The position numbers were made by a program, and so were the translations under genes. Shown one piece after another: positions 13,164 through 27,791 of a stretch of DNA of 64,000 nt. Each line of letters starts with the position of its first letter. Positions within the stretch are counted from its first letter, which is position 1. The notes beneath the pieces were generated by a model. That model searched no databases. It saw only the letters and a program-made list of their open reading frames with translations, and was not told where the DNA came from. Origin of the DNA: an uncultured Lachnotalea sp. (GTDB lineage Bacteria > Bacillota > Clostridia > Lachnospirales > Lachnospiraceae); NCBI GenBank assembly GCA_947066815.1, contig CAMSZT010000004.1, forward strand, positions 58,646 through 122,645. The letters run 5' to 3'.

Positions 13164-14018
13164 CTATCCGGCCTTCCCCTCTGAGCCGGCCAGCCGGATG
13201 ATGTCCCGGATATCTCCCCGGAGCCTCTCCTCCGCGTAAGCGGAGAGCTTCCAGGCGTGGTCCTGAAGATCCATGGCACAGCCTTCCCGCAGATAGGTCA
13301 TGTAGTTGTGGCGCACCTGAGTGCCGAAATTGATCTTTGCCACGCCGTATCCGATCGCCCTGCGGATCATATCCTCGTCCATGCCTGTACAGCCGTGCAG
13401 GACGAAAGGGATTTCCGTATGCCGCCGGATCTCCTCCAGCACCTCCAGACGGATGTCCGGTTTCGCCTTATAGAAGCCGTGGGCATTTCCGATCCCGACG
13501 GCAAGAAAGTCCGGCCGGCATAACCGGAGGTATTCCAGTACCTGGGCCGGGTCGGCCGCATGGGCGGAGCCTGCCTGGTTTCCATCGGCATCCAGCCGGC
13601 CGATCTGCCCGATCTCCGCCTCCACCGGCACGCCCCGCCCATGACAGGCGGCGATGACCCGGTTGGTGTTGGACGCATTCTCCTCCAGGGGGAGGGCGGA
13701 ACCGTCGTACATGATGGAAGTGAAGCCCAAATCCAGGCACTCCAGACAGTGTTCCACCGTATCCCCGTGATCCAGATGGATGGCCACGGGCACATCCACC
13801 TTCTCTGCCATCCACCTGGCGGTTTCGTAGAACCAGTCGTGGCCGGAGTAGGCCCCCGTGGACAGATAATGGGCCAGGATCACCGGCGAGCGCAGCTCCT
13901 GGGCGGCCATGCACACCGCCCGGATGATGTCGTAGGTACCGCCCTGCGTGTTGACGGCCGCCACCGCATAGCGTTCCTCCCGGGCCCTTTTCAGCATTTC
14001 TTTCGTTGTCGTCAGCAT
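13164..14018 (-). CDS. Class II (zinc) fructose/tagatose-bisphosphate-type aldolase
   Basis: A 284-residue metal-dependent aldolase of the Fba/GatY/KbaY family that cleaves a ketose (bis)phosphate into dihydroxyacetone phosphate and an aldehyde. The zinc ligands are in IHLDHGDTVEHC (about 81), GNAHGFY (about 178) and VLHGCTGMD (about 206); the glycine-rich phosphate loop KINFGTQVR follows. ATG at 14018 has AAGGAG upstream. It is the last gene of the leftward catabolic operon, 22 nt after the dehydrogenase. The presence of PFK-like and TIM-like enzymes in the same operon argues for a bisphosphate substrate entering lower glycolysis. The exact sugar cannot be read from the sequence. Confidence 0.9.
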   Translation of the reverse strand: MLTTTKEMLKRAREERYAVAAVNTQGGTYDIIRAVCMAAQELRSPVILAHYLSTGAYSGHDWFYETARWMAEKVDVPVAIHLDHGDTVEHCLECLDLGFTSIMYDGSALPLEENASNTNRVIAACHGRGVPVEAEIGQIGRLDADGNQAGSAHAADPAQVLEYLRLCRPDFLAVGIGNAHGFYKAKPDIRLEVLEEIRRHTEIPFVLHGCTGMDEDMIRRAIGYGVAKINFGTQVRHNYMTYLREGCAMDLQDHAWKLSAYAEERLRGDIRDIIRLAGSEGKAG

Positions 14019-14040: not shown

Positions 14041-15054
14041 TCACATCTTCACGACCACTTTTATGTAATTTCCCGGGTTGGCCATCATATCCAGCATGGT
14101 GGCCTCTGCCTCCTCCAGCTTTATCACCTTAGTGATGATCCTTTGCACAGGCACCGCACCGGCGGCCAGGAGGGACAGGGCCGCAGAGAACTGCTTGTTG
14201 GAATTCCGGGAGGGGTGGATATCCAGCTCCTTCTGGATGCACCGGACGGTGTTCACCGTCACCGGACCTTTCGGCCAGCCGACCAGGGCGATCCGTCCGC
14301 CGTGGCAGACATAGTCGTGCATCGCCCCCAGAACGGCCGGCGAACCGCTGCAGTCCAGCATGGCCCGGGGCAGGCCGCCCGCACCCTCCCTCAGATAAGC
14401 AGTCAGATCCCCCTCGCCGCTGTTAAAGGTATGGGCAATGCCGCATTCCCTGGCAAAGCGCAGCCGCTCCTCCACCACATCCACCAGGATGGGCCGGGCG
14501 CCCCTGCTCTTCACCCCGAAGGCAGCCAGAAGGCCGATGGGGCCCGCACCGGTGATGACACAGGATTCCCCCTTAGCCACCCCGGCCCGGGCGGCGGCAT
14601 GGAGGCCGATGGTAAGCGGCTCCGCCAGGGCCGCGTCCAGAGGATCCAGGCCCTCCGGCATCTTGTGGAGCAGATCCGACGGGAATACCACATAGTCCGC
14701 CATCATGCCCCCGGTGTGGACTCCTGCCACACGGATGTCCTCACAATTGTTAAACCTCTCTTCGGCGCACATCCGGCAGCTCCGGCAGGGGATATAAGGC
14801 TCCAGAGCCACCTTATCACCGGCGCAGAGCCCCCGGTCATTCTCCCCGATCTCCTCGATCGTGCCGATCCCCTCATGGCCGATGCCGGCGACCGGGTAGC
14901 GCACCGTGGGGTTCTTTCCGGTGTAGGCCGTCAGGTCGGAACCGCAGATGCCGCAGTATTCCATGCGGATCAGGGCATGGCCCGGCCGGACCTCCGGCCG
15001 GGGGACCTCCTTAAGCTCCATCTTTCCCGGAGCCCTCAGTTCTAAAATCTTCAT
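14041..15054 (-). CDS. Zinc-dependent medium-chain dehydrogenase (sorbitol/threonine dehydrogenase type)
   Basis: A 337-residue NAD(P)-dependent alcohol dehydrogenase of the MDR superfamily. The catalytic zinc site is CGICGSDLTAY plus GHEGIGTIEEIG, the structural zinc cluster is CRSCRMCAEERFNNC, and the Rossmann motif is GAGPIGLLAAFG. Polyol, sugar-phosphate or amino-alcohol oxidation are all possible in this family. ATG at 15054 has only a weak purine-rich site, preceded by an array of 17-bp repeats that separates it from the ATPase gene. It is one of two MDR enzymes in the regulon; the other is at 29147. Confidence 0.88.
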   Translation of the reverse strand: MKILELRAPGKMELKEVPRPEVRPGHALIRMEYCGICGSDLTAYTGKNPTVRYPVAGIGHEGIGTIEEIGENDRGLCAGDKVALEPYIPCRSCRMCAEERFNNCEDIRVAGVHTGGMMADYVVFPSDLLHKMPEGLDPLDAALAEPLTIGLHAAARAGVAKGESCVITGAGPIGLLAAFGVKSRGARPILVDVVEERLRFARECGIAHTFNSGEGDLTAYLREGAGGLPRAMLDCSGSPAVLGAMHDYVCHGGRIALVGWPKGPVTVNTVRCIQKELDIHPSRNSNKQFSAALSLLAAGAVPVQRIITKVIKLEEAEATMLDMMANPGNYIKVVVKM

Positions 15055-15073
15055 AGATCGTCGTCTTCTTTCT

Positions 15074-15209
15074 CAGTTTATCTTTCTTCTCAGTTTATCT
15101 TTCTTCTCAATTCATCTTCCTTCTCAGTACATCTTTTTTCTCAGTTCATCTTCCTTCTCGGTACATCTTTTTTCTCAGTCAATCTTCCTTCGCGGTTCAT
15201 CTTTCTTCC
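15074..15209. repeat. Tandem array of eight 17-bp units
   Basis: Eight consecutive 17-nt units begin at 15074, with consensus CAGTTCATCTTCCTTCT. The first two are identical and the others differ at one to six positions. On the coding strand each unit reads AGAAGGAAGATGAACTG, so each resembles a ribosome-binding site followed by ATG. The array fills the spacer between the ATPase stop and the dehydrogenase start. It has no spacers, so it is not a CRISPR array. Confidence 0.85.
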
Positions 15210-15219
15210 CGGCTCCTGC

Positions 15220-15978
15220 TCACCACCATTTGATCTTGTCGGTGATATAGTTGCGGTAGTCGATAAATTTCGGGTCCGTGATATCCCGGGGATGGGGCAG
15301 GTCAATGAACACCTCCTCCTTGATCGTTGCAGGCTTGTTGGTCAGGATGATCACCCGCTCGGCCAGATAGACCGCCTCCTCAATGTTGTGGGTGATGAAT
15401 ACCACGGTGCTCCCCAGCTCCTTCCACAGCCGGATGACCTCGTCCTCCAGGTAAAAACGGACCTTCACATCCATCTGCCCGTAGGGTTCGTCCATCAGGA
15501 GCAGGTCCGGCTGCATGGCAAAGGACCGGCCGATGATCACCCGCTGGACCACGCTCACCGACAGCTCCCTGGGGTAGGACTTCCGGTACCGCTCCAGCCC
15601 CATCAGGGAGATGATCTGCTCCACCCGCTTCCGGATCTCACTTTTGCCCAGTTTTTTGACCTTCAGGCCAAAAGCGATGTTCTCCTCCACCGTCAGCCAG
15701 GGAAAGGCGGAGGGCTCCTGGAATACAAAGGAAATGCTGTGCCTGCCGGGATCGGCGGGCTGTCCGTCGATATAGAGATCCCCCTCCGTTGGCTCGTGGA
15801 TGCGGGTGAGTACGTTGAGGAAGGTGGTCTTGCCGCACCCGGTGGGGCCCACCACGCAGACAAACTCATTCTTTTTAATGGTAAAATTCAGGTTATCCAG
15901 TACCAGGAGATCGCCGAACTTCTTTGTCAGGTCCCTAACCTCCACCTTGACTGGTCTGTTGTCTGTTTGTCGTTCCAT
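15220..15978 (-). CDS. NitT/TauT-type ABC importer ATPase A (degenerate signature motif)
   Basis: A 252-residue ATPase of the nitrate/sulfonate/taurine importer family (SsuB/TauB-like). Walker A GPTGCGKTT (about 41), Q-loop VFQEPSAFPW, Walker B LLLMDEPYGQMD (about 158) and H-loop ITHNIEEAVYL (about 195) are intact. The ABC signature reads LSVSVVQR (about 137) where LSGGMRQR is expected, so it cannot contribute a normal signature to the partner's ATP site. ATG at 15978 has AAAGGAG upstream. It lies 19 nt after ATPase B, whose defects are complementary, and the pair presumably form a heterodimer under the two permeases encoded upstream. Confidence 0.9.
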   Translation of the reverse strand: MERQTDNRPVKVEVRDLTKKFGDLLVLDNLNFTIKKNEFVCVVGPTGCGKTTFLNVLTRIHEPTEGDLYIDGQPADPGRHSISFVFQEPSAFPWLTVEENIAFGLKVKKLGKSEIRKRVEQIISLMGLERYRKSYPRELSVSVVQRVIIGRSFAMQPDLLLMDEPYGQMDVKVRFYLEDEVIRLWKELGSTVVFITHNIEEAVYLAERVIILTNKPATIKEEVFIDLPHPRDITDPKFIDYRNYITDKIKWW

Positions 15979-15997
15979 GTCGCTCGCTCCTTTCCCG

Positions 15998-16759
15998 TCA
16001 GATCGCCAGGTCCGTGTTGTCGGAGATCCTGGTCCGGATACCCAAAAACTCCCGGCTGACCATGTCCCTGGGCCTTGGCAGGCCGATGGGGTAAGTCTCC
16101 TTGACCGTGGCGGGGCAGTCGCTGAGCAGGATGATCCGGTCGCCCAGGTACACGGCCTCCTCGATATTGTTGGTGACAAAGATCACCGTTCTGCGCTCCG
16201 CCTCCCAGATACGAAGGATCTCATTCTGCATGGAATAGCGGGTCTGGGCGTCCAGCTGTCCGAAGGGCTCGTCCATGATCAGGACCTTCGGGTTGGCCGC
16301 GTAGGCCCGGGCGATCCCCACCCTCTGCTTCATCCCGCCGGAAAGCTCGTGAGGGTAGGACTTCTCGAAGCCTGTCAGGCCCACCAGCTCGATATAATGC
16401 CGGGCGGTCTCCCGCCTCTCCCCTTTCGGTACCCCTCTGAGTTTCAGCGGCAGCTCCACATTTTCCATGACCGTCTTGAACGGCATGAGGGCCAGGCTTT
16501 GGAATACCATGCCGAAGTCCGGGTGAGCCCCCGTCTTCTCCTGGCCGTTGTAGCGGATGCTGCCCCCGGTTTTCTCCTCGATACCGGCGATCATATTTAA
16601 CAGCACCGTCTTCCCGCAGCGCCCCGGCCCCAGGATGACCAGAAATTCACCGTCGTTCAGGGAAAAGCTCACATCCTCCACTGCCGTGAAATAACCGCCG
16701 GAGTTAAAAAACGTTTTGGTCACATGCTCGACCACCAGTCCGCTGGTCAGTTGTTCCAT
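15998..16759 (-). CDS. NitT/TauT-type ABC importer ATPase B (H-loop His replaced by Asn)
   Basis: A 253-residue ATPase of the same family as its neighbour. Walker A GPGRCGKT (about 40), Q-loop MVFQSLALMPF, signature LSGGMKQRVGIARAY (about 136) and Walker B VLIMDEPFGQLDAQTR (about 160) are sound. The switch His is lost: FVTNNIEEAVYL stands where FVTHDIDEAVYL is usual. ATG at 16759 overlaps the permease stop by 13 nt. With ATPase A, which keeps the His but has a broken signature, this predicts one fully consensus ATP site and one degenerate site in the heterodimer. Confidence 0.9.
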   Translation of the reverse strand: MEQLTSGLVVEHVTKTFFNSGGYFTAVEDVSFSLNDGEFLVILGPGRCGKTVLLNMIAGIEEKTGGSIRYNGQEKTGAHPDFGMVFQSLALMPFKTVMENVELPLKLRGVPKGERRETARHYIELVGLTGFEKSYPHELSGGMKQRVGIARAYAANPKVLIMDEPFGQLDAQTRYSMQNEILRIWEAERRTVIFVTNNIEEAVYLGDRIILLSDCPATVKETYPIGLPRPRDMVSREFLGIRTRISDNTDLAI

Positions 16760-17532
16760 GGGCACACCACCTTTTCCAATTTGTTGAGCACAAAGGCCAG
16801 AATGGCCCCGATGATACCGATACAGATAATGGAGACAAACACCAGAGCCATATCCCCGGCATTCCATCCCCGGGTCACCAGGGCTCCCACGCCGTGGTCC
16901 GCCCCCAGCATCTCGGCGGCCAGCACCACCGTCCAGGCGCAGCTCACGGAGGTGCGCACACCGGCGAAGATGGAGGGCAGGGCTGTGGGCACCACAAACT
17001 CCCTGAGGAGCTGGGATCTTTTGGCCCCGAACACCCGGCCCACATCGATATACTCTTTCTCCACCATGCGGATCCCCGCCTCCGTGTTGATGACGACCGG
17101 GATAAAGCTGCCGATAAATACGATCAGGACCTTCGGAAACTCGCCGATTCCGAACCACATGATGATAATGGGGATCCAGGCAATGGGCGGGATGGGCCGG
17201 AAAAGCTCGAAAATGCTGCCAAAGAGCGCTTTGCAGGTCCTGTTCCACCCGATCAGCACGCCGAAAGAGATCCCCAGCGTCCAGGCAAACAGCAGGGCGA
17301 TGAGCACGCGCCGCAGGCTGGCCCAGATGTGTCCCGGGAGGCCGGCCTCCTTGATCGGGTTTGTGAATGTCCTCAAAAACCGGTCCCAGAGTTCCCCCGC
17401 GTCCGGCAGCAGCGCGGGAAGACGCATCTGTACCAGGGCGTAGGCCAGGATCACCAGGGCCACCGAGAGGACGGGCAGGATGAGATACAGGATCCGCTGC
17501 CATTTTTTACGCTGTCCGATGGTATAAAACAT
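16747..17532 (-). CDS. NitT/TauT-type ABC importer permease 2
   Basis: A 261-residue membrane protein with about six hydrophobic segments, including YLILPVLSVALVILAYALV at the N-terminus. The ATPase-contacting EAA loop is GRVFGAKRSQLLREFVVPTA followed by LPSIFAGVR. The segment FRPIPPIAWIPIIIMWFGIG is characteristic of SsuC/TauC permeases. ATG at 17532 has AAGGAGGGAGG upstream. It is paired with a second, distinct permease gene immediately upstream, so the translocation pore is probably a heterodimer like the ATPases. Confidence 0.91.
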   Translation of the reverse strand: MFYTIGQRKKWQRILYLILPVLSVALVILAYALVQMRLPALLPDAGELWDRFLRTFTNPIKEAGLPGHIWASLRRVLIALLFAWTLGISFGVLIGWNRTCKALFGSIFELFRPIPPIAWIPIIIMWFGIGEFPKVLIVFIGSFIPVVINTEAGIRMVEKEYIDVGRVFGAKRSQLLREFVVPTALPSIFAGVRTSVSCAWTVVLAAEMLGADHGVGALVTRGWNAGDMALVFVSIICIGIIGAILAFVLNKLEKVVCPWNN

Positions 17533-17547: not shown

Positions 17548-18381
17548 TTACCGTTCCAGCTTCCACTTGAGCACCCGCTTCTCCAGGATGCCCAGCGCCA
17601 GTGCCATCAGGGCTCCCAACACGCTGATCGCCACCATGCCGGCCACCACGATGTCCGCCCTCGCCACATTCCGCCCCACCTGGAGCATGTAGCCCAGGCC
17701 GGCCTTTGCCGCAAGCATCTCCGCCGCCACCAGGGTGGACCAGGCGCCGCCCAGAGCGGTGCGCACGCCGGTGAACACCATGGGCATGGCGGAAGGGATC
17801 CCCACCTTGACAAATGTCTCAAAATTGCCGGCCCCGAAGGTCTTGGCAACGTTGATGAGGGTCCTCTTGGTCAGCTTGATGCCCGTGTAGGAATTAATGA
17901 CGCAGGGGACAAACACGGACAGAAATATGATCGTCGCCTTTGCCTTCAGGTCGATCCCCACAAAGACCACCACCACGGGGATCCAGGCGATGGGCGGCAC
18001 GGGGCGCAGCAATTCGAACACCGGGCGGACGAACTTGTCGACCGGCGTGAACCACCCCATGAAGAGCCCCAGGGGGATGCCGATGACCAGAGCCAGAAAG
18101 AAACCGCTGAGCGCCACCTGGAGACTGGCCACGATGTTGGTCCCCAGGGTATTTCCGTCGGGATTCCTGTTGCTGATCTTATAAATGAGGGTCTCCATCA
18201 CTTTCGTGGGCGCCGGCAGGTTCCTGACATTGACCAGTTTGAACTGGACCACCAGCTGCCAGACGAGCAGGAATACCGCAATGCCCGCGGCGGACAGAAG
18301 GACCATCCGCAGAAGGTTCTTTTTCCGGCTCTTTTTATAGGCGGACAGCCCCTGCTCCAAATCCTTTTGATTGATTGACAT
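17548..18381 (-). CDS. NitT/TauT-type ABC importer permease 1
   Basis: A 277-residue inner-membrane permease with a cytoplasmic N-terminus (QKDLEQGLSAYKKSRKKN) and about six membrane segments. The coupling helix is AKTFGAGNFETFVKVGIPSA followed by MPMVFTGVR, and LLRPVPPIAWIPVVVVFVGI matches the family. It resembles permease 2 only at the level of shared family motifs. ATG at 18381 has AAGGAGAAAAG upstream, 35 nt after the binding-protein gene. Most transporters of this family use a homodimeric permease, so two permease genes side by side are worth noting. Confidence 0.91.
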   Translation of the reverse strand: MSINQKDLEQGLSAYKKSRKKNLLRMVLLSAAGIAVFLLVWQLVVQFKLVNVRNLPAPTKVMETLIYKISNRNPDGNTLGTNIVASLQVALSGFFLALVIGIPLGLFMGWFTPVDKFVRPVFELLRPVPPIAWIPVVVVFVGIDLKAKATIIFLSVFVPCVINSYTGIKLTKRTLINVAKTFGAGNFETFVKVGIPSAMPMVFTGVRTALGGAWSTLVAAEMLAAKAGLGYMLQVGRNVARADIVVAGMVAISVLGALMALALGILEKRVLKWKLER

Positions 18382-18416: not shown

Positions 18417-19592
18417 TTACCGGCTCTCCTCATAGAGTTCGTCGATGAGGGAGGTGTCCAGGTGTCCCTCTTTCAGGAACAGCTCGTCGTCCCCCTCCTG
18501 ATAGCTCTCCGTTTCGATAAAGAAGTTCAGGACTCCCAGGATCTGCTCCTGGATACGGCAGTAGTCTCCGCCGTCGTGGGCCGCCTCGTGGAGCGCGTTG
18601 TAATTGTCTTCCAGCGTATAATAGGGATCCACGGTGCAGTACAGGGCGGCCACCTCCTCGTCGACCGTATTGCCGGCGTACTCACACCACTGTATCATAT
18701 ACTTGGTAGCCTCCTCCGGGTTTGCACTGATCCAGTCGGCAGCCTTAAAAAACACCTGGAGAAATACCTTCATCGCCTCACGCTGCTCCTCATCCTTGAT
18801 CGCGGTGGGATTGGCCACAAAGTTGGTCTGCAGGCCGAGATCGGCCAGAGGGCCTGTGGAGGCGATCACAAACTCATCCTTGTCCGACTTAAAGCTCACC
18901 TCGCCGCTGACGCAGGTGGCATCGCCCTCGCCGGCCAGGAAGGAAGCGTTGGCAGTGGGCATATCCATCCAGTTGACCACCACGTCGTCGATCGTAAGTC
19001 CGAAACCGCTGAGTGTCTTGAGCAGCAGGTAGTGCAGGACCGTACCGTATGTACTGTTGACACTCATTCCTTTCCAGGACTCCGCATCGCCTACGATCTC
19101 CTCATTGATGCTGTTGTGCCCCTTGCCTGCCGCCGCCACCGGGCTGTCCGGACGGACGAAGAGATACTGCGTGCCGTCGTCCGTGCCGACCGTGCCCAAA
19201 AGGACCGCATCGTAGGAGATCAGCCCCGAAAGGACACCGCCCACTCCCGTCACACTGATATCCCAGGTGTCAATGGCTTCCATGGTGACGGGACCGTTCG
19301 TGAAGCCCATCCGCTCAATATCGAGGCCGGCCTCCTCGAACCACCCCATCTCCTGGGCAACGTACACCGGGAAAAGGGTGATACTGCCGTCGATGCCGGC
19401 CACTTTCAGGCTGTAAGAGCTGTCACCCGCCGAAGCGCTGCTACCCTCGGCGGGATCGCTTTTGCTCTCTCCTGCCGCAGTGCTTCCGGCGCTGTCCGAA
19501 GGACCGCTCCCGCTTTTGGAGCCGCTGCCGCCGCAGGCGGCGAGACTGAAGATCATAACCATAGTCAGTAAAAATGCCGTCAGTTTTTTCAT
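18417..19592 (-). CDS. ABC importer substrate-binding lipoprotein (NitT/TauT family)
   Basis: Extracellular solute receptor of the importer, anchored by lipid. The signal peptide MKKLTAFLLTMVMIFSLAAC ends at a lipobox Cys (residue 20), followed by a Gly/Ser/Ala linker. The mature domain has YSLKVAGIDGSITLFPVYVA and AQEMGWFEEAGLDIERMGF, typical of NMT1/SsuA-like receptors, and at 391 residues it is slightly long. AGGAGG precedes ATG 19592. Family substrates are small anions such as nitrate, sulfonates, taurine, or thiamine precursors; carbohydrate import by this type is unusual, yet the flanking genes are sugar-phosphate enzymes. The ligand is therefore open. Confidence 0.9.
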   Translation of the reverse strand: MKKLTAFLLTMVMIFSLAACGGSGSKSGSGPSDSAGSTAAGESKSDPAEGSSASAGDSSYSLKVAGIDGSITLFPVYVAQEMGWFEEAGLDIERMGFTNGPVTMEAIDTWDISVTGVGGVLSGLISYDAVLLGTVGTDDGTQYLFVRPDSPVAAAGKGHNSINEEIVGDAESWKGMSVNSTYGTVLHYLLLKTLSGFGLTIDDVVVNWMDMPTANASFLAGEGDATCVSGEVSFKSDKDEFVIASTGPLADLGLQTNFVANPTAIKDEEQREAMKVFLQVFFKAADWISANPEEATKYMIQWCEYAGNTVDEEVAALYCTVDPYYTLEDNYNALHEAAHDGGDYCRIQEQILGVLNFFIETESYQEGDDELFLKEGHLDTSLIDELYEESR

Positions 19593-19674: not shown

Positions 19675-21135
19675 TCACACGCCGGAAAGGTCGTCGCCCT
19701 GCATGCACAGATGGACGGCCGCCAGCTTGAAGGTCCTGGGGAGAGCCAGGATGCGGGGAGCCGGCCCCACATACTTTCGCATGGCATCGGCCAGCGCCTC
19801 CTCAAATGTGGCCCGGGTTTTTAAGCCCATACCCCTGGCGATCCCCGGCTCCTGGGCCCCGACGATGTAGATGGCCGACGTGTTCATCTCCGCGATATGG
19901 CCGCAGGAGATCATGGAGAAGCCGTGGAACGGGTGGAAGGCATTGCAAAACCGGTAACGCCGGATATACTCCTCGTTGGTGGCAAAGTATTCCCCATACC
20001 GGTGCAGATCCGGCAGAGTATTCATGTAGTCGTGCTGGAACAGCTCATAGAGCTCTCTGAGATAGGGCCAGCGTTCGTCGTGAAAATATCCGTTGCAGAC
20101 GGACGAGCAGATGATGACGCAGTTGTCTTTCATCACACGTTTATGGCGGATGACCTGGGCGGACAGTGCCTGCATCATCTGGATGGGGTTTGTGCCCATC
20201 CCGTCCCCGTAATGGAAATCCTGGGGCATCCCGAAGACCATCACATCGTACTTTTCTTCGGCGAAGGGCACATAGGTCCGCTTGTTGGCCGTCGCCCAGG
20301 ATCTGAGCTGCATTTCGGCGGCACAGCCGGAGTGGATCTCGATCTGCCTGGAGTAGGTGTCCAGCACCGCGTCGCAGCAGAAGAAGGGGTGCCCCATCTT
20401 TTTTTCCATCCACATGCCGATCTCATCAAACTTGGTGCGCATCATGCTGTGGCCGGAAACCGGGGTGAAATCCGGACGGTGCATCACATCCGGCACATGG
20501 TGGCTGGCGATGGAACGCCAGTGGGTGATCCCGGTGGCACAGTGCTTATAGCCCCCGGAATAGCCTCCGTAAGGATTGCCCTGGGTATGGCCGATGAGAA
20601 TGGGAATGTCACATTCGAACACATACCGGTTCATCAGCACCGGGTCCCCCCTCTCCGTGACTCCCAGATCGGCCAGATGGTCATAGTCCTCGCTGTCATG
20701 GCTGGTGATCTGATGGGTCCAGTAAAACTCATGAAAGAGCTCCTCCCCCAGGATCTTCTTCATCTCCGGCACGGTGGTCCGCGGATGGAGCCCGTTGGAG
20801 AACAGGAGCAGGATATCCTTCCGCTCCACGCCGGCCGCATACAGCTCGTCCAGGCATGCCCGGATGGCCACGCGCCGGTGGGCCGTGGGCTGGCATCCGC
20901 CCTTGACGATGTCCGGGATGATAAACACCACCGTTTTGCCGGGCGCGGCCAGCTCCCTCAGCGGAGGCATCCCGGCAGGATCGCGGATGCTCTCCAGGGT
21001 GGCAGCGTAGAGACTGTCCCAGTCCTGGGGAAGGCAGGGGGGATCAGCCACCGTCTCTCCGGCGATAAACACGTCGGTGCTGTCAGGCAATTCGGCCGTC
21101 ATCAGGCCGTGTCCGTACTCAAGATCAAGTCTCAT
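19675..21135 (-). CDS. LarA-family nickel-pincer enzyme (lactate racemase/2-hydroxyacid epimerase-like)
   Basis: A 486-residue member of the LarA superfamily (DUF2088-type N-terminal domain), whose known members racemise or epimerise 2-hydroxy acids with a nickel-pincer nucleotide. Visible landmarks are IIPDIVKGGCQPTAHRRV, a cofactor-type segment GGYSGGYKHCATGI with the expected Lys (about 194), and a His pair in SIASHHVPDV. It is about 60 residues longer than lactate racemase. No larB, larC or larE cofactor genes are in the window, so the cofactor must be made elsewhere or the protein works differently. ATG at 21135 overlaps the TIM-like stop by ATGA, binding it tightly to the sugar operon. 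A sugar-acid or polyol substrate is inferred, not shown. Confidence 0.82.
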   Translation of the reverse strand: MRLDLEYGHGLMTAELPDSTDVFIAGETVADPPCLPQDWDSLYAATLESIRDPAGMPPLRELAAPGKTVVFIIPDIVKGGCQPTAHRRVAIRACLDELYAAGVERKDILLLFSNGLHPRTTVPEMKKILGEELFHEFYWTHQITSHDSEDYDHLADLGVTERGDPVLMNRYVFECDIPILIGHTQGNPYGGYSGGYKHCATGITHWRSIASHHVPDVMHRPDFTPVSGHSMMRTKFDEIGMWMEKKMGHPFFCCDAVLDTYSRQIEIHSGCAAEMQLRSWATANKRTYVPFAEEKYDVMVFGMPQDFHYGDGMGTNPIQMMQALSAQVIRHKRVMKDNCVIICSSVCNGYFHDERWPYLRELYELFQHDYMNTLPDLHRYGEYFATNEEYIRRYRFCNAFHPFHGFSMISCGHIAEMNTSAIYIVGAQEPGIARGMGLKTRATFEEALADAMRKYVGPAPRILALPRTFKLAAVHLCMQGDDLSGV

Positions 21136-21974
21136 AGTGATCCTCCTAAATATAAACGAATGATTTCCAGGTACTCCTCAGGGTAGAAGCCGATCTCCCC
21201 CTGAAACCGGGTGAGGGCGATGAGCCCGCCGTCGAGCTCCTCGATGGCGGCCAGCATGGCGGCGTTATCCGTTTTCAGACCGCCCCCGTAGACCACATCA
21301 ATCCCGCCGGTGCGTTCCTTGATAAAACGCGCTGCCTTCTCGATATAGTCTCTCCCCGCCGGGGTTTTTCCGGGGCCGATCGACCAGACCGGCTCGTAGG
21401 CGACCACAACCTTGCTCCTGTCCACGCCGTCCAGCCCCACGTCCAGCTGCTCTCCCAGGACCCGCTCCCAGTCCGGCTGCTCGTCAGCGGTCTCGCCGAT
21501 ACAGTAGAGTACCTTGAGGCCGGCCGCCTGCGCACACCGGATCTCCCGGTTTAGAAGGCGGTTGACGGCTCCCGCGTCCGCAATCCCCGCCTCGGCCAGA
21601 ACTCCTTTCTTGTCCGTCCGCTCCTCGCAGTGTCCGATAAGAGTATAGACACATCCCAGCGCTTTCATACTGTTGGCGGTCCGCCCGGCAGTAAACGCGC
21701 CGAAATTCCCGCCCTCCGCCGTGTCTTCCCGGTATACCCCCTGACACCCGATCCGGACAGGGCCGCCCGGGCGGCAGGCGGAGCGGGCGCCGATGATGTG
21801 CGCCTCCGGAAAAAACTGGACAAACTCCACGCGGGCGGCATCATAGCGTGCCAGCGCCTCCTGCGTCCGCTCCACCACAGTCCCCCCCCACTTCTCCCCT
21901 GGCGCCAGCCGGTTCACCCCGCCGTACACAGGCGGCACATCAAACCGCTTCAGATTCAGATACAAATGTTTCAT
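21132..21974 (-). CDS. Triosephosphate-isomerase-family protein
   Basis: A 280-residue (beta/alpha)8 isomerase. The three TIM catalytic residues are present: Lys in LYLNLKRFD (about 9), His in TLIGHCEERTDK (about 105) and Glu in VVAYEPVWSIGPGKTP (about 185), with the phosphate loop VVYGGGLKTDNA. The rest is distant from housekeeping TIM, and the N-terminus has an extra segment (KWGGTVVERTQEALARYD). Members outside glycolysis include tetrulose-phosphate isomerases such as EryH. ATG at 21974 overlaps the PFK-like stop (ATGA) with GGAAGAGGG upstream. In this operon it probably isomerises a triose or tetrose phosphate released by the aldolase. Confidence 0.87.
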   Translation of the reverse strand: MKHLYLNLKRFDVPPVYGGVNRLAPGEKWGGTVVERTQEALARYDAARVEFVQFFPEAHIIGARSACRPGGPVRIGCQGVYREDTAEGGNFGAFTAGRTANSMKALGCVYTLIGHCEERTDKKGVLAEAGIADAGAVNRLLNREIRCAQAAGLKVLYCIGETADEQPDWERVLGEQLDVGLDGVDRSKVVVAYEPVWSIGPGKTPAGRDYIEKAARFIKERTGGIDVVYGGGLKTDNAAMLAAIEELDGGLIALTRFQGEIGFYPEEYLEIIRLYLGGSL

Positions 21975-23155
21975 GCTTCCCTCTTCCCTTTCTTGTACAG
22001 CTTTGTGAATTGTAAATGGTCCCCCAGATCCCCGCCCGCCAGGGGGCGGCACCAGTCGACAAATTCCCGGGTGACATCATTGCCCCGCTCGTTGATCCAG
22101 GAATCCGGCAGGGTCCTTTCACGGAGCATCACCTGCTCGACCGGGATCCGGGTGAGCCGGATCTTGTAGGGACTGGAGCTGACCCGCTCGATGCCGATCA
22201 TGATCCCGCCGATCCCCTCCAGGGCCGCCCGGACCGCCTCCCTGCCCACCAGCTCCGCCTCCTCCCGGTCCACCCCCGACTGCCAGGGAATGGAGGAGCG
22301 CTCGCACAGGCCGGGTTTTTCATACCGCGCCTTAATGCCCAGTTCCCTCGTCACCGCATCGGCCAGATGGATCCCCGCGTAGCTGGGATACAGAGAGCGC
22401 CCCGAAGTGAAGACCGGCGCCCCCACAAACCGGCCGTCCTCCCCACGCAGCCCCTCGCTGCAGACCACCACCACGCCGCCGCGCTGCCGGTACAGCCGCT
22501 CCACATCCTCCAAAAAATGATCCATACAAAAGGTGCGCTCCGGCAGATAGATCAGGTGGGGGCCGTCCCCCGGCTCTCTCCGGGCCAGGGCCGAGGCGGC
22601 CGTCAGCCACCCGGCGTTGCGGCCCATGGTCTCCGTCACACTCACATGGATCGGGAGCGCCTCCACGTCGCAGGCTGCTTCCCGGACGGCCGCCGCCACA
22701 AACCGGGCGGCGCTGGCATAGCCGGGGGCATGATCCGTCACGGCAATGTCATTGTCGATGGTCTTGGGTACCCCGACCACGGAGATCCCCATCCCCGCGC
22801 AGGCCAGGCTCAGCCTGCCGCAGGCGTCCATGGTGCCGTTGCCGCCGTTCATGAGGACAAAACGGATGTCATGGCGGTCCAGGACCTTCGCCATTTCCGT
22901 ATAATGTTCCGCCTCCAGGGCGAAGCGGGAGGTTCCGATGGAGGAAGCCGGCGTATGTAATAGACGGCGGGTCTCCCGCTCCGGGAAGGCCGTCAGATCC
23001 ATAAACCGTTCCAGCAAAACTGCCTCGCTGCCTCCAACCGCTCCCAGGACCCGTTCCACCCTGCCGTCGGCCCGGGCCTCCTCGATCACGCCGTAGAGGG
23101 AAGCGTTCATCACGGCAGTCGGCGCACCTCCGTGTATAATCAGTAAATCCGCCAT
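21971..23155 (-). CDS. 6-phosphofructokinase-family kinase (PFK/PPi-PFK clade)
   Basis: First gene of the leftward operon, 394 residues. It has the clade opening LLIIHGGAPTAVMNASLYGV, VLMNGGNGTMDACGRL, the PFK hallmark GVPKTIDNDIAVTDHAPGYA and VTETMGRNAGWLTAA. In PPi-using relatives the second motif is GGNDS; here the donor-selecting Asp is Gly, as in ATP-PFKs, while the PKTIDND Lys of PPi enzymes is kept. The phosphoryl donor is therefore uncertain. The start at 23155 is 6 nt after AAGGAGG. Because a FGGY kinase is encoded divergently, this enzyme probably adds the second phosphate before aldol cleavage. Confidence 0.88.
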   Translation of the reverse strand: MADLLIIHGGAPTAVMNASLYGVIEEARADGRVERVLGAVGGSEAVLLERFMDLTAFPERETRRLLHTPASSIGTSRFALEAEHYTEMAKVLDRHDIRFVLMNGGNGTMDACGRLSLACAGMGISVVGVPKTIDNDIAVTDHAPGYASAARFVAAAVREAACDVEALPIHVSVTETMGRNAGWLTAASALARREPGDGPHLIYLPERTFCMDHFLEDVERLYRQRGGVVVVCSEGLRGEDGRFVGAPVFTSGRSLYPSYAGIHLADAVTRELGIKARYEKPGLCERSSIPWQSGVDREEAELVGREAVRAALEGIGGIMIGIERVSSSPYKIRLTRIPVEQVMLRERTLPDSWINERGNDVTREFVDWCRPLAGGDLGDHLQFTKLYKKGKREA

Positions 23156-23285
23156 TTGCATCCTCCTTGACAACAGTAGTCGATCGACAGTCATCGATCA
23201 TCTGAGAGATTCCACCGGCCGCGATTTCAAGAAAACCATTTCAGGCAAATCAATACAATTCCAGGTCTTTGATAATGAAAATTTA

Positions 23286-23624: not shown

Positions 23625-24770
23625 ATGATTGCTCTTATCAACGCAAAGATCATTTGTGAACATGAAATCCTGAGAGATCATGTCGTCCTGTTCGAGGACA
23701 AGATTCATGCAATTTTACCCAAAGAGGCAGCGGACCTGACGGGAATGGAAATCATTGACGGCATGGACTGCTATCTCAGCCCCGGCTTCATTGACATACA
23801 CAAGCACGGGGCCTACGACTACGACTTCATGGATGCCCGGAACGAAGAGGCCCTGTCCCTGCTGGCACGCCTGCCGGAAACCGGCGCATCCTCCCTCTAC
23901 CCCACCACCATGGCCATGGGATTTCCCGAGGTCCGCCGGGCAATGGAAGCCATCGGAGCACTGATGGACACCCCCCATCCCGGCACTCAGGTACTGGGCT
24001 GTCATATGGAAGGGCCTTTCCTCTCCCCGGACTGGGGCGGAGCGCAGCCGAGGGAATTTATCGTCCCGGCGGACTATTCCCTGGTGGAGGGCCTGGAGCA
24101 CGTGATCAAGCTGGTGACCGTCGCCCCGGAGGAACCGGGAAACATGGACTTCATCCGCCTCTGCATCCGGGCCGGCATCCGGGTTTCCATCGGCCACACG
24201 CTGGCCCATTATGAGGACGCCATGGCCGCCTTTGCCCTCGGGGCCTCCTCGGTGACCCACACCTTCTGCGCCATGCACCAGCTCCAGCACCGGGAACCGG
24301 GGGTGGTCTGCGCCGCCAGCGAGAATCCCGGCGTGTTCTGTGAGCTGATCGCGGACAACCTCCACATCCATCCGGCCACCCAGCGGGCCCTTCTGAAGCT
24401 GAAGGGGATCGGGCAGATGATCCTGGTGACCGATTCCATGCGCTTTGCCGGAATGGGCTACGGGGAATCCACCCTGGCCGGCCAGCACGTCACCATCGAC
24501 GAGACGGGCGCCCATCTGGACAACGGATTTTTCGCGGGAAGCGTCCTGGCCCTCAACGACGCGGTGGCCAACTACAGGAGGAACAACCGCCTGTCCATGG
24601 CCGACGCCGTAAAACCGGTCACCGCCAACCCGGCCCGGCTGATGGGCATCTACGGCCAAAAGGGCGTCATTTCGCCCGGGGCGGACGCGGACCTTGTCCT
24701 CATCGACGAGGACATCCGCGTCCGGCGGACCATCATAGCCGGCCGCACGGCCTTCTGCGCGGCGAACTGA
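23625..24770 (+). CDS. N-acetylglucosamine-6-phosphate deacetylase family protein (NagA-like)
   Basis: A 381-residue amidohydrolase that removes the acetyl group from an N-acetylamino sugar phosphate. The family landmarks are present: metal-site GFIDIHKHGAYDYDFMD (about 55), GCHMEGPFLSP, SIGHTLAHYEDAM, SSVTHTFCAMHQL, LIADNLHIHPATQ and the catalytic Asp in ILVTDSMRFAG. Compared with housekeeping NagA, THTFNAM has become THTFCAM and ADGxH has become ADNLH, so substrate choice may have shifted. AAGGAGGAG precedes ATG 23625. No nagB or agaS deaminase follows; a kinase and an aminotransferase take that place. The substrate is inferred to be an N-acylated amino sugar or polyol derivative. Confidence 0.86.
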   Translation: MIALINAKIICEHEILRDHVVLFEDKIHAILPKEAADLTGMEIIDGMDCYLSPGFIDIHKHGAYDYDFMDARNEEALSLLARLPETGASSLYPTTMAMGFPEVRRAMEAIGALMDTPHPGTQVLGCHMEGPFLSPDWGGAQPREFIVPADYSLVEGLEHVIKLVTVAPEEPGNMDFIRLCIRAGIRVSIGHTLAHYEDAMAAFALGASSVTHTFCAMHQLQHREPGVVCAASENPGVFCELIADNLHIHPATQRALLKLKGIGQMILVTDSMRFAGMGYGESTLAGQHVTIDETGAHLDNGFFAGSVLALNDAVANYRRNNRLSMADAVKPVTANPARLMGIYGQKGVISPGADADLVLIDEDIRVRRTIIAGRTAFCAAN

Positions 24771-24849
24771 CCGGATCCGGGTGCGGGAAGCCGCCCCTCT
24801 CCTCAATCAAATTGCACAATGGTTCGTGATCCTGCGAAAGGAAATACCC

Positions 24850-26343
24850 ATGAAACAATATTCTCTGACCTTTGATTTCGGTTCCGGCAGCGTGAAGGCG
24901 GCCCTGGTGGGCGGCGACCACCGGATCCTGGCCTCCTGCAACCGACCCTACAACACCTACTATCCTCAGAAGGGCTGGGCCGTCCAGAGCCCGGATACCG
25001 CCTGGAGCAGCCTTCTTGAGGCCACCAGGCTGTTGATGGAGTCCGCCGCGATCCTTCCCGCCCAGGTCAAGGGGATCGCCCTGTCCCATACCGGCTCCAC
25101 CGTCCTCTTCGTGGACGGGGAAGGAAAGCCGCTGACCGACTGCGTCATGTGGATGGACGGCCGCGCCGTAGAGCAGGCGGGCCGCCTCAATGCCCTGGCC
25201 GGCCGGGAACTGTACACCGGGAAAAATGTCATCGCCAAGCTCCTCTGGTTCATGGAAATGCAGCCGGAGGTGGTCCGCTCCGCCTATAAGCTCCTGGATC
25301 TCCAGGGCTACCTGCTTTTTTGCATGACAGGCGAACTGGTCTACGAATCCACCGGGGCCAGGACCACTCGGCTGTTCCATGAACGCGAGGGCTGCTGGGA
25401 TGCGGACAAATTCGCCCAGAGCGGCTTCCCCCGCCGGCTGGTTCCGGAGCGGGTGGTCCGCTCGGAGGAGCTGGTGGGGCGGCTCACCGCGCAGGCTGCC
25501 CACCTGCTCGGCCTCTCCGAGGGCACTCCTGTCTACGGCGGATGCTGCGACCACGCCACGGCGGTCCTCGGAGCCGCCTGCATCCACCCCGGAGACGCCC
25601 ATATCTACATCGGGACCTCCGCCTGGCTGGCCGTGACGGCGCGGGAATACCGCGATGTCCCCACCATCCGCCCCTCCCCCGTCCCCGGGCAGTGGTACCA
25701 CTATTATGAGAGCGACTCCGGCGGGAACTGCATCGACTACCTGCTCCGCCACCATTATCAGAAGGAGCTGTCGGAGGGCCTGGATGTCTACTCCCTGCTG
25801 GGGGAGGAGAGCGCGGACAGCTCCTCCTACAAGGATGTGCTGTTCCTCCCCTTCCTCACCGGCGCCTCGGCTCCCATAAGCGATGTCCGCTCCCGCGCCT
25901 CCCTCCTGAACCTGGAGGCCGGCACCACCAGAGGACAGATTTCCCGCGCGGTGCTGGAGGGCCTGGGCTTCAACCTTCTGTGGCTCAAAGAATTCTGCAC
26001 GGCCGACAACGGCTGGAATGTGGGGCAGCTCCGGGGCATCGGCGGCGGGATGATGCTGCCCGAGAGTGTACAGACCATCGCCAATATCCTGGGCGACCCC
26101 ATCGCCACGGTGCGTGACCCCCGGTTTGCCGGAAACGTGGGGCTGGCCGTCTGTGTGGAGGTGGGTCTGCAGGAGCATGACGACGGGTATTCCGTTTTGG
26201 ATAAGACCGGCGCCTTTGACCGGCTCTTTGTCCCCCAGGAGGCTCTCCGCGAGCGGTATGACCGGCTCTACCGATCCTATAAAGCCGCATTTTTTGCCCT
26301 CAGCCAGATATACAACACGTTAAATAACAGAAAGGAAGACTGA
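24850..26343 (+). CDS. FGGY-family carbohydrate kinase
   Basis: A 497-residue sugar kinase of the xylulokinase/gluconokinase superfamily. The N-terminal ATP-binding site is LTFDFGSGSVKAALV, the substrate side has CVMWMDGRAVEQAGRL, and the C-terminal half shows GGCCDHATAVLGA with the catalytic Asp, IYIGTSAWLAV and the second FGGY signature around AGTTRGQISRAVLEGLGF. ATG at 24850 has AAAGGAAA upstream; a longer reading from 24781 adds no family sequence. The next gene begins 2 nt after its stop. It probably performs the first phosphorylation after import, since no phosphotransferase system is present in the region. The sugar is unknown. Confidence 0.88.
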   Translation: MKQYSLTFDFGSGSVKAALVGGDHRILASCNRPYNTYYPQKGWAVQSPDTAWSSLLEATRLLMESAAILPAQVKGIALSHTGSTVLFVDGEGKPLTDCVMWMDGRAVEQAGRLNALAGRELYTGKNVIAKLLWFMEMQPEVVRSAYKLLDLQGYLLFCMTGELVYESTGARTTRLFHEREGCWDADKFAQSGFPRRLVPERVVRSEELVGRLTAQAAHLLGLSEGTPVYGGCCDHATAVLGAACIHPGDAHIYIGTSAWLAVTAREYRDVPTIRPSPVPGQWYHYYESDSGGNCIDYLLRHHYQKELSEGLDVYSLLGEESADSSSYKDVLFLPFLTGASAPISDVRSRASLLNLEAGTTRGQISRAVLEGLGFNLLWLKEFCTADNGWNVGQLRGIGGGMMLPESVQTIANILGDPIATVRDPRFAGNVGLAVCVEVGLQEHDDGYSVLDKTGAFDRLFVPQEALRERYDRLYRSYKAAFFALSQIYNTLNNRKED

Positions 26344-26345
26344 CT

Positions 26346-27791
26346 ATGCTACGACAAGATTATCTCAACGGTTATGATGCCGACGCCATCCACCAGCGGG
26401 CCGCCCGGGTCATCCGGGACGGAAAACGCCTCTCCCAGGAGGCCCTGGAGACATACCGGGCCTGGTTTGACCAAAAATGTGCCGGTTCCAAAGCGGCCGT
26501 CGAGGAGGCCAAGCGTTTTATTCCCGGAGGGATACAGCACAACCTGGCCCTCAACCACCCTTTCCCCCTGGATATCGTCCGGGCCGACGGCCCCTACCTC
26601 TGCGACATCGACGGCAATCAGTATATCGACCTGCTCAATGCCGGCGGCGTCACCATTCTGGGCAACAACTATCCCCCGATCCGGGAGGCAGTCGTGAGGA
26701 TGATGGAGGACACCGGATATCTCACCGGCCTCTACCATGAATATGAGCGGAAACTGGCGGAAAAGATCTGCTCCTGCTACCCTTCCTGCGACAAATTCCG
26801 GATGCTGGGCAGCGGCACGGAGGCGGTGATGGTAGCCCTCCGTCTGGCCCGCGCTTTCACCGGAAAGGACCAGATCGTCAAACTCAAGGGCTGCTATGAC
26901 GGCTGGAGCGACCATATCGTCTACGACGTGCGCACGGTAAACACCAAAGCCTCCTTCGCCTCCGGGATCCCCGCCGATACGTTAAAAAACACCTCCGCCG
27001 TGATGATCAACGATCCGGAGGCCCTGGAACGGCGTTTTATCGAAAACGAGGCCAAAGGCGGCACCGCGGCCTTCATCATGGAACCCATCGGGCAGGACTC
27101 CGGCGGCGTGCCGGTCCGGCTGGGCTACCACCAGGAAGTCCGGCGGCTGTGTGACAAATACGGCGTGCTGCTCATCATGGACGAGGTGGTCACCGGCTTC
27201 CGCCTCGGCATGGGTGGAGCCCAGGAGACCTTCGGCGTGCCGGCGGACATCACCGTCTTCGGCAAGATCATCGCCGGCGGCTTTGCCTCCGCCGGAGGCG
27301 TGGGGGCCCGGGATGAGATCATGGCCCTGATCACCCCCGGCGTATCCCACACCGCGGGACGGACCATCATGCTGGGCGGGACCCTGAGCGCCAACCCGGT
27401 CAGCTGCGTTGCCGGCTACACGGCCCTGTGCGAGCTAGAACGGACCCGCGCCCACGAAAAACTGGAGACGGCCGCGGAGCAGTTTGCCAGAGATCTGACG
27501 GATCTGGCCAATCGGTATGAAATCCCTGCCATCATCACCCATCAGGGCTCCATCATGCAAATCGACGTCACGGGCTTCAAGCACATCGCCACCTTCCGGG
27601 AGTACTCCGAGGCGGAGATCGCTGCCCTGCGGGCGGAGGGCGGAAAGCGGATGAACGAGTTCGCCATGGCCCTGGCCGCCGAGGGAGTCATCGTAGCCGC
27701 CGGCAACAAGACCTTCCTGAACCTCCAGACCATCGGTGTCCTGCAGGATGCCCTGGCTGCCTATGAGCGGGTATTCCGGCAGATGATCTGA
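26346..27791 (+). CDS. Class III aminotransferase, glutamate-semialdehyde-aminomutase-like
   Basis: A 481-residue PLP enzyme whose core resembles HemL (KRFIPGGIQHNLALNH, LGSGTEAVMVALRLARAF, LIMDEVVTGFRLGMGGAQ, PLP-Lys in VFGKIIAGGFASAGG near residue 305). It has an extra N-terminal segment of about 45 residues. The true hemL is at 4925 in the hem operon, so this copy is free for another job. Within an operon that also encodes a deacetylase and a sugar kinase, it could transaminate, or shift within the molecule, the amino group freed by deacetylation. ATG at 26346 has AAAGGAAG upstream. A role in side-chain amine metabolism unrelated to sugars is possible but less consistent with context. Confidence 0.88.
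   Translation: MLRQDYLNGYDADAIHQRAARVIRDGKRLSQEALETYRAWFDQKCAGSKAAVEEAKRFIPGGIQHNLALNHPFPLDIVRADGPYLCDIDGNQYIDLLNAGGVTILGNNYPPIREAVVRMMEDTGYLTGLYHEYERKLAEKICSCYPSCDKFRMLGSGTEAVMVALRLARAFTGKDQIVKLKGCYDGWSDHIVYDVRTVNTKASFASGIPADTLKNTSAVMINDPEALERRFIENEAKGGTAAFIMEPIGQDSGGVPVRLGYHQEVRRLCDKYGVLLIMDEVVTGFRLGMGGAQETFGVPADITVFGKIIAGGFASAGGVGARDEIMALITPGVSHTAGRTIMLGGTLSANPVSCVAGYTALCELERTRAHEKLETAAEQFARDLTDLANRYEIPAIITHQGSIMQIDVTGFKHIATFREYSEAEIAALRAEGGKRMNEFAMALAAEGVIVAAGNKTFLNLQTIGVLQDALAAYERVFRQMI

Follow-up and report, generated by a model that had tools for sequence, protein, structure and literature searches.

Can an importer of the NitT/TauT type be built around two ATP sites of unequal quality? 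The question is raised by a gene cluster on the minus strand of a 64,000-nucleotide stretch of DNA from an uncultured Lachnotalea sp. (contig CAMSZT010000004.1), the whole of which is referred to here as the window. The cluster is a five-gene, NitT/TauT-like predicted importer consisting of one substrate-binding lipoprotein (SBP), two permeases (P1 and P2) and two ATPases (A and B) of the ATP-binding cassette (ABC) type. Each ATPase deviates from the canonical motifs in a different place, and the best reading of the sequences is that A and B would form an obligate heterodimer, in which one ATP site is a consensus site and the other is degenerate.

The importer genes and their motifs

The genes of the importer and the residues on which the argument turns are the following (ORF, open reading frame).

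15220..15978, minus strand: ATPase A, 252 amino acids (PF00005; ORF and motif reading)
15550..15564, minus strand: signature of A, LSVSV, residues 139-143, degenerate with respect to LSGGx
15388..15390, minus strand: switch His197 of A, retained
16001..16759, minus strand: ATPase B, 252 amino acids (PF00005; ORF and motif reading)
16607..16630, minus strand: Walker A of B, GPGRCGKT, residues 44-51, with Arg47 instead of Gly (motif reading)
16331..16345, minus strand: signature of B, LSGGM, residues 139-143, intact
16169..16171, minus strand: Asn197 of B at the switch-His position (motif reading)
16747..17532, minus strand: permease P1, TauC/SsuC-like (BPD_transp_1; gene order kept in relatives)
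17548..18381, minus strand: permease P2, TauC/SsuC-like (BPD_transp_1; gene order kept in relatives)
18417..19592, minus strand: SBP, SsuA/NMT1-like (PF09084; gene order kept in relatives)

P1 and the start of ATPase B overlap by 13 bases. The translated ORF of A contains GPTGCGKT, the Q-loop Gln, LSVSV, LLMDEP, QMD and ITHN, and that of B contains GPGRCGKT, LSGGM, LIMDEP, QLD and VTNN. Both proteins retain Lys in Walker A, Asp in Walker B and the catalytic Glu. An earlier note on this DNA had described A as carrying LSVSV for LSGGx while keeping Walker A, Walker B and the switch His, and the re-read ORF agrees. Its description of B, an intact LSGGM with Asn for the switch His, is borne out as well, but a third change, Arg47 in Walker A, had been overlooked.

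In ABC dimers each ATP is sandwiched by the Walker A, Walker B, Q-loop and H-loop elements of one domain and the signature of its partner (PMC7756269, in the text available). With this geometry an A-B dimer has one site in which everything is intact, the pocket of A facing the signature of B, and one site that collects all three changes. Site 1, composed of the Walker A and B motifs and His of A with the LSGGM of B, would be complete, and ATP hydrolysis is predicted there. Site 2, composed of the GPGxCGK Walker A and Asn of B with the LSxS of A, retains Lys, Gln, Asp and Glu; it is predicted to bind ATP with slow hydrolysis or none, and might serve as a hinge or ATP clamp during cycling at site 1. 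It is thus likely, judging from the motifs, that A and B form a head-to-tail heterodimer with one intact and one crippled ATP site, where site 2 would hold ATP while site 1 cycles. We infer the assembly of the heterodimer, the holding of ATP at site 2 and the hydrolysis of one ATP per cycle. The division into a consensus and a degenerate site had been proposed in the earlier note from the complementary defects, and is supported by the fixation of the motifs and the constant pairing of the genes among relatives.

Fixation of the motifs in relatives

Relatives were collected by a genome scan with A, from which the best 80 of 585 confirmed stretches were used, and whole-genome searches supplied further loci. 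The 234 fetched loci were re-read, and their ABC ATPases were classed on profile score alone: the A class lies above 350 bits (no score falls between 400 and 275) and the B class above 335 bits (gap from 347 to 326). As controls, 49 other distinct ATPases of NitT type, scoring at least 180 bits, were taken. ABC ATPases below 180 bits with both profiles were dropped before the control count as distant and, by score, not of NitT type; in some of these the signature likewise lacks GG (LSVAE, MSVSQ, LSLGQ).

Across these loci the signature of A is [LIM]S[VATSMI]S in all 114 distinct relatives, the second Gly being always Ser, and the switch His is present in 114/114. SGGM occurs in each of the 113 distinct B relatives, whose switch-His position is occupied by Asn (111/113) or Ser (2/113). 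Walker A position 4 of B is non-Gly in 112/112 readable sequences, one B being truncated before Walker A, and is filled by R, Q, H, L, E, Y, N or K. Every distinct A and B has the catalytic Glu and the Q-loop Gln, and all that are readable there have the Walker A Lys. The controls are canonical in 49/49 cases: Walker A position 4 is Gly, the signature has SGG and the switch His is present. Alignment with homologues, the check that the earlier note had proposed, therefore finds both variants fixed in relatives and absent from the controls. What replaces the lost residues is itself conserved, with Ser in place of the second signature Gly and Asn or Ser in place of His, and this speaks for a function and not decay; in contrast, Walker A position 4 of B varies, though it is never Gly.

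Database searches gave the same picture. Among the best 120 of 7957 relatives passing the E-value with the A query, a non-GG signature together with His is found in 120/120, and among the best 120 of 7961 with the B query, 120/120 combine SGGM and Asn with an Arg as the fourth Walker A residue. Lone oddities within these best 120 per query include one A with LSVIV and one Walker B reading LLMVEP, which may be errors.

The importer family is mostly clostridial by record title. Record titles of the best 80 of 585 stretches name Clostridia, Desulfovibrio, Sphaerochaeta, another Spirochaetia bacterium, Anaerolineaceae and a Planctomycetota metagenome-assembled genome (MAG), although MAG titles may be wrong.

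Pairing and gene order

The two ATPases are found together. The 28 genomes reached via named loci contain 50 A-type and 50 B-type matches, with equal counts in 28/28, while a search of the phylum (398 genomes) gives 8 A and 8 B matches above the score gap in the same 7 genomes and in the order (246 genomes) A and B, with 8 matches apiece, likewise share 7 genomes; the candidates scored per genome numbered 6 in the 398-genome set, 10 or 11 in the 246-genome set and up to 96 in the 28-genome set, so that extra copies may be missed. In the 28-genome set eleven further B-profile matches, lying below a gap (E 1.4e-107 to 2.1e-95), were set aside, and 11/11 of them have a canonical Walker A, a canonical signature and the His.

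A and B are adjacent in 164 pairings and apart in 7, overlapping stretches being counted more than once. In the separated form the gene order is A-SBP-P2-P1-B, which retains both ATPases, so the pairing survives rearrangement. Five loci as first fetched contain A only and four B only; four of each are short flanks of clusters with this second order, for which the whole stretches were also read (L152-L155). The fifth A, L025, is the sole A without B across the fetched loci with both gene orders covered, and its A frame opens at contig base 50. Either variant as the sole ATPase, the finding that would have spoken against the earlier note, was looked for in the fetched loci and genome searches and was not found, and the expected co-occurrence holds genome by genome, with the pair adjacent in most loci. 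The two distinct permeases, which had likewise been pointed out, are retained beside the A-B pair across loci; from them the earlier note had suggested that the whole transporter may be a hetero-tetramer. Crude gene calling mislabels a few clusters: in L053, L070 and L218 no gene is labelled P2, in L227 and L228 the P2 label appears twice and P1 is missing, and L224 lacks a B label though the B ORF is present.

Origin and covariation

A quick tree built from 208 sequences places A (75 rows) and B (91 rows) each on one side of a branch, with support of 99 for both. Masking Walker A, signature and H-loop gives a support of 100 for A and 98 for B, and the classes remain separable by profile score. 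Since the groups persist after masking, the motifs are not what defines them. The 42 controls lie on one side in the masked tree (92) and do not in the unmasked tree (2 changes). A single duplication followed by complementary change may have given rise to the pair; it fits the masked tree but not the unmasked one.

Covariation was analysed in 111 A-B pairs (effective number about 76), with Walker A position 4 of B compared against 199 variable columns of A. Four of its seven strongest partners fall within residues 139-149 of A, that is, the signature and the residues following it, and no other of the 206 variable B columns reaches four partners in this segment. For the fifth signature residue of A, Walker A position 4 of B is the strongest partner, and 47 of 40,994 pairs rank higher; the pair with the third signature residue stands lower, with 528 of the 40,994 ranking above it. 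The two halves of the crippled site, Walker A position 4 on B and the signature on A, thus appear to covary although they reside on different proteins.

Weighing the alternatives

Several observations weigh against the asymmetric heterodimer. The top-ranked covarying pairs overall do not link these motif columns, the limits of the 139-149 segment were chosen after the top columns were known, and part of the covariation and distance correlation is explicable by shared phylogeny. The profiles were built from members already carrying the motifs, and the score gap for B is small (347 against 326 bits). A joined B-A model is compatible with a dimer of two nucleotide-binding domains (NBDs) and is not proof of one, its predicted template modelling score (pTM) being only 0.65 and the linker imposing proximity. 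The degenerate site retains its catalytic Glu, and Asn or Gln in place of the H-loop His preserved transport at one site of MRP1 (PMC7756269, available text); together these mean that site 2 might still hydrolyse ATP. In DppDF, another importer with two ATPases, both are reported to hydrolyse (PMC12136057, in the portion available).

The last points are the basis of an alternative in which there is one A-B heterodimer, as in DppDF, the substitutions merely tune rates and both sites hydrolyse. The Glu, Gln and Lys conserved in A and B, the tolerance of Asn in the H-loop of MRP1 and the activity of both DppD and DppF favour it; it is nevertheless unlikely, as three changes of site 2 are fixed together whereas 49/49 controls have the canonical residues, and every degenerate site of human ABC proteins has signature changes, according to the part of PMC7756269 at hand. 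That A and B instead act as separate homodimers for different complexes or conditions is highly improbable: A-A would combine two bad signatures and B-B two altered pockets, all loci read contain the pair save the contig-end truncation, two permeases accompany it, and the Walker A residue of B covaries with the signature of A. Sequencing error, the other result that the earlier note had named as fatal, or decay of a duplicated ATPase has a negligible probability. The non-canonical residues recur in 114/114 A and 113/113 B against 0/49 controls, which is neither chance nor sequencing error; equivalent residues are found in more than 100 distinct sequences with intact frames, from several phyla by record title and including isolate genomes, and the database relatives repeat them.

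The asymmetric heterodimer is hence preferred. Beyond it, we lean towards a widespread, separately evolved family of SBP-dependent importers with a permanently asymmetric motor, which would hydrolyse one ATP per cycle and hold the second at a purpose-built crippled site with co-evolved halves.

Family assignment of the importer

The SBP matches PF09084 above the cut-off (E 2.6e-9) and TIGR01728 below it (E 2.1e-14). PRK10160 TauC is the best model for both P1 and P2, under the equivalog cut-off. The top three models for ATPase B are SaoA, TauB and NtrCD, while for ATPase A SaoA is first, NtrCD fifth and TauB ninth, all under their cut-offs. The components by which NitT/TauT-like importers are recognized, namely an SsuA/NMT1-like SBP, a TauC/SsuC-like permease and an SsuB/TauB/NrtCD-type ATPase, are all present, but two canonical ATP sites are not, to judge by the motifs of A and B. 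Since the listed NitT/TauT models all matched under cut-offs, the system is NitT/TauT-like and no named member of the group.

Neighbouring genes and substrate

The importer is flanked in the window by genes of the same strand.

13164..14018, minus strand: class II ketose-bisphosphate aldolase-like protein (profile match)
14041..15054, minus strand: zinc-dependent sugar-alcohol/threonine dehydrogenase-like protein, downstream of A (profile match)
19675..21135, minus strand: LarA-like nickel-pincer enzyme with a single His (Asn type), found repeatedly as a neighbour (profile match; PMC12393405, available part)
21132..21974, minus strand: triosephosphate isomerase-like protein (profile match)
21971..23194, minus strand: phosphofructokinase-like protein, pyrophosphate-dependent (PRK14072 subfamily, above cut-off)

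At 15070-15208, between ATPase A and the zinc dehydrogenase, a 17-base unit with the consensus TTCTCAGTTCATCTTTC is repeated in tandem (8.2 copies, 80% matches). The divergent plus-strand region 23625-27791 encodes a NagA-like deacetylase (above cut-off), an FGGY kinase and a class III aminotransferase related to glutamate-1-semialdehyde aminomutase; these three genes also adjoin the transporter in locus L013.

The LarA-like protein of the window is close to two solved single-His LarA enzymes (9q3j, E 1e-253; 9q2u, E 1e-240) and shares with them the stretch QGNPYGGYSGGYK, which includes Asn187 where a catalytic His is expected. A preprint on single-His LarA, in the portion available, describes Asn187 of one such enzyme as replacing the catalytic His, and lists glycolytic enzyme genes and possible sugar ABC transporters as neighbours (PMC12393405). 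A LarA-like ORF lies within the fetched flank in 25 of 80 loci (the best 80 of 585 stretches), and Asn occupies that position in 28/28 LarA-like ORFs of the fetched loci that score above 150 bits, the query itself being of the Asn type. From these neighbours it is a reasonable guess that the substrate in the subgroup of the window is a sugar, a sugar acid or a polyol.

Clusters with the second gene order (L151-L155, L222, L223) have genes for thiamine-diphosphate enzymes (L151, L154) or for class III aminotransferases (L154, L223) in their vicinity, which suggests a different substrate. An alanine dehydrogenase is also found near this order. Elsewhere the neighbours are ribulose-phosphate epimerase, sulfatase, transketolase and ribosomal genes; in L080 (9828-14671) a copy of the transporter cluster lies between transketolase genes and ribosomal protein genes. 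As the neighbours differ between subgroups, no family-wide substrate is claimed. For an uncharacterised importer family that is often located beside single-His LarA, the substrate of one would help with that of the other.

Comparison with known systems

Degenerate ATP sites are a familiar feature of exporters, and the usual model of an importer has two equivalent ATP sites. A and B are two non-equivalent NBDs with complementary motif loss. The exporters TM287/288, TmrAB, BmrCD, TAP, ABCG5/G8 and Pdr5 likewise have one consensus and one degenerate composite site. In heterodimeric exporters the transmembrane domain and the NBD are fused in one chain, whereas here permease and ATPase genes are separate; in many of them the catalytic Glu is changed or missing at the degenerate site, which is common and not universal, while DEP is present in both A and B. 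ABCG5/G8 pairs changes in the signature and Walker A, as found here (PMC7756269, available text).

The earlier note was right to trace the asymmetry to exporters and to regard it as new to the NitT/TauT-like group, but other importers with one ATP site degenerate by sequence, RbsA and NupO of B. subtilis, had already been reported (PMC11466899, available part), and the novelty is therefore confined to this group. No NitT/TauT-type importer with a degenerate site was found in the literature searched (open-licence papers). RbsA and NupO, importers of sugars and nucleosides, have their ATPase halves fused in one polypeptide, unlike the two separate ORFs of A and B, and their second Walker A lacks the Lys that B keeps, according to the same portion of that source.

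The cyanobacterial nitrate and bicarbonate importers NrtBCD and CmpBCD (PDB codes 8wm7 and 9u9z) are likewise of NitT/TauT type with two different ATPases. Among solved structures, the chains nearest to the B profile, and to the B half of the joined model, are those of NrtCD and CmpCD; for A the nearest is the sugar-transport ATPase 1vci, slightly ahead of CmpD. Unlike A and B, however, CmpD, NrtD and NrtC are canonical in the alignments read, with SGGM, His and a GHSGCGKS Walker A, and the NrtC and CmpC chains have 665-690 residues as opposed to 252. DppBCDF of E. coli also consists of five different subunits, including an SBP, two permeases and two ATPases, but it is a dipeptide importer with iron-sulfur clusters and both its ATPases are reported to be active (PMC12136057, available portion). 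With their fixed unequal sites, A and B offer a natural system in which to ask if a single hydrolysis per cycle is enough to drive an importer, and what role a non-hydrolysed second ATP would play.
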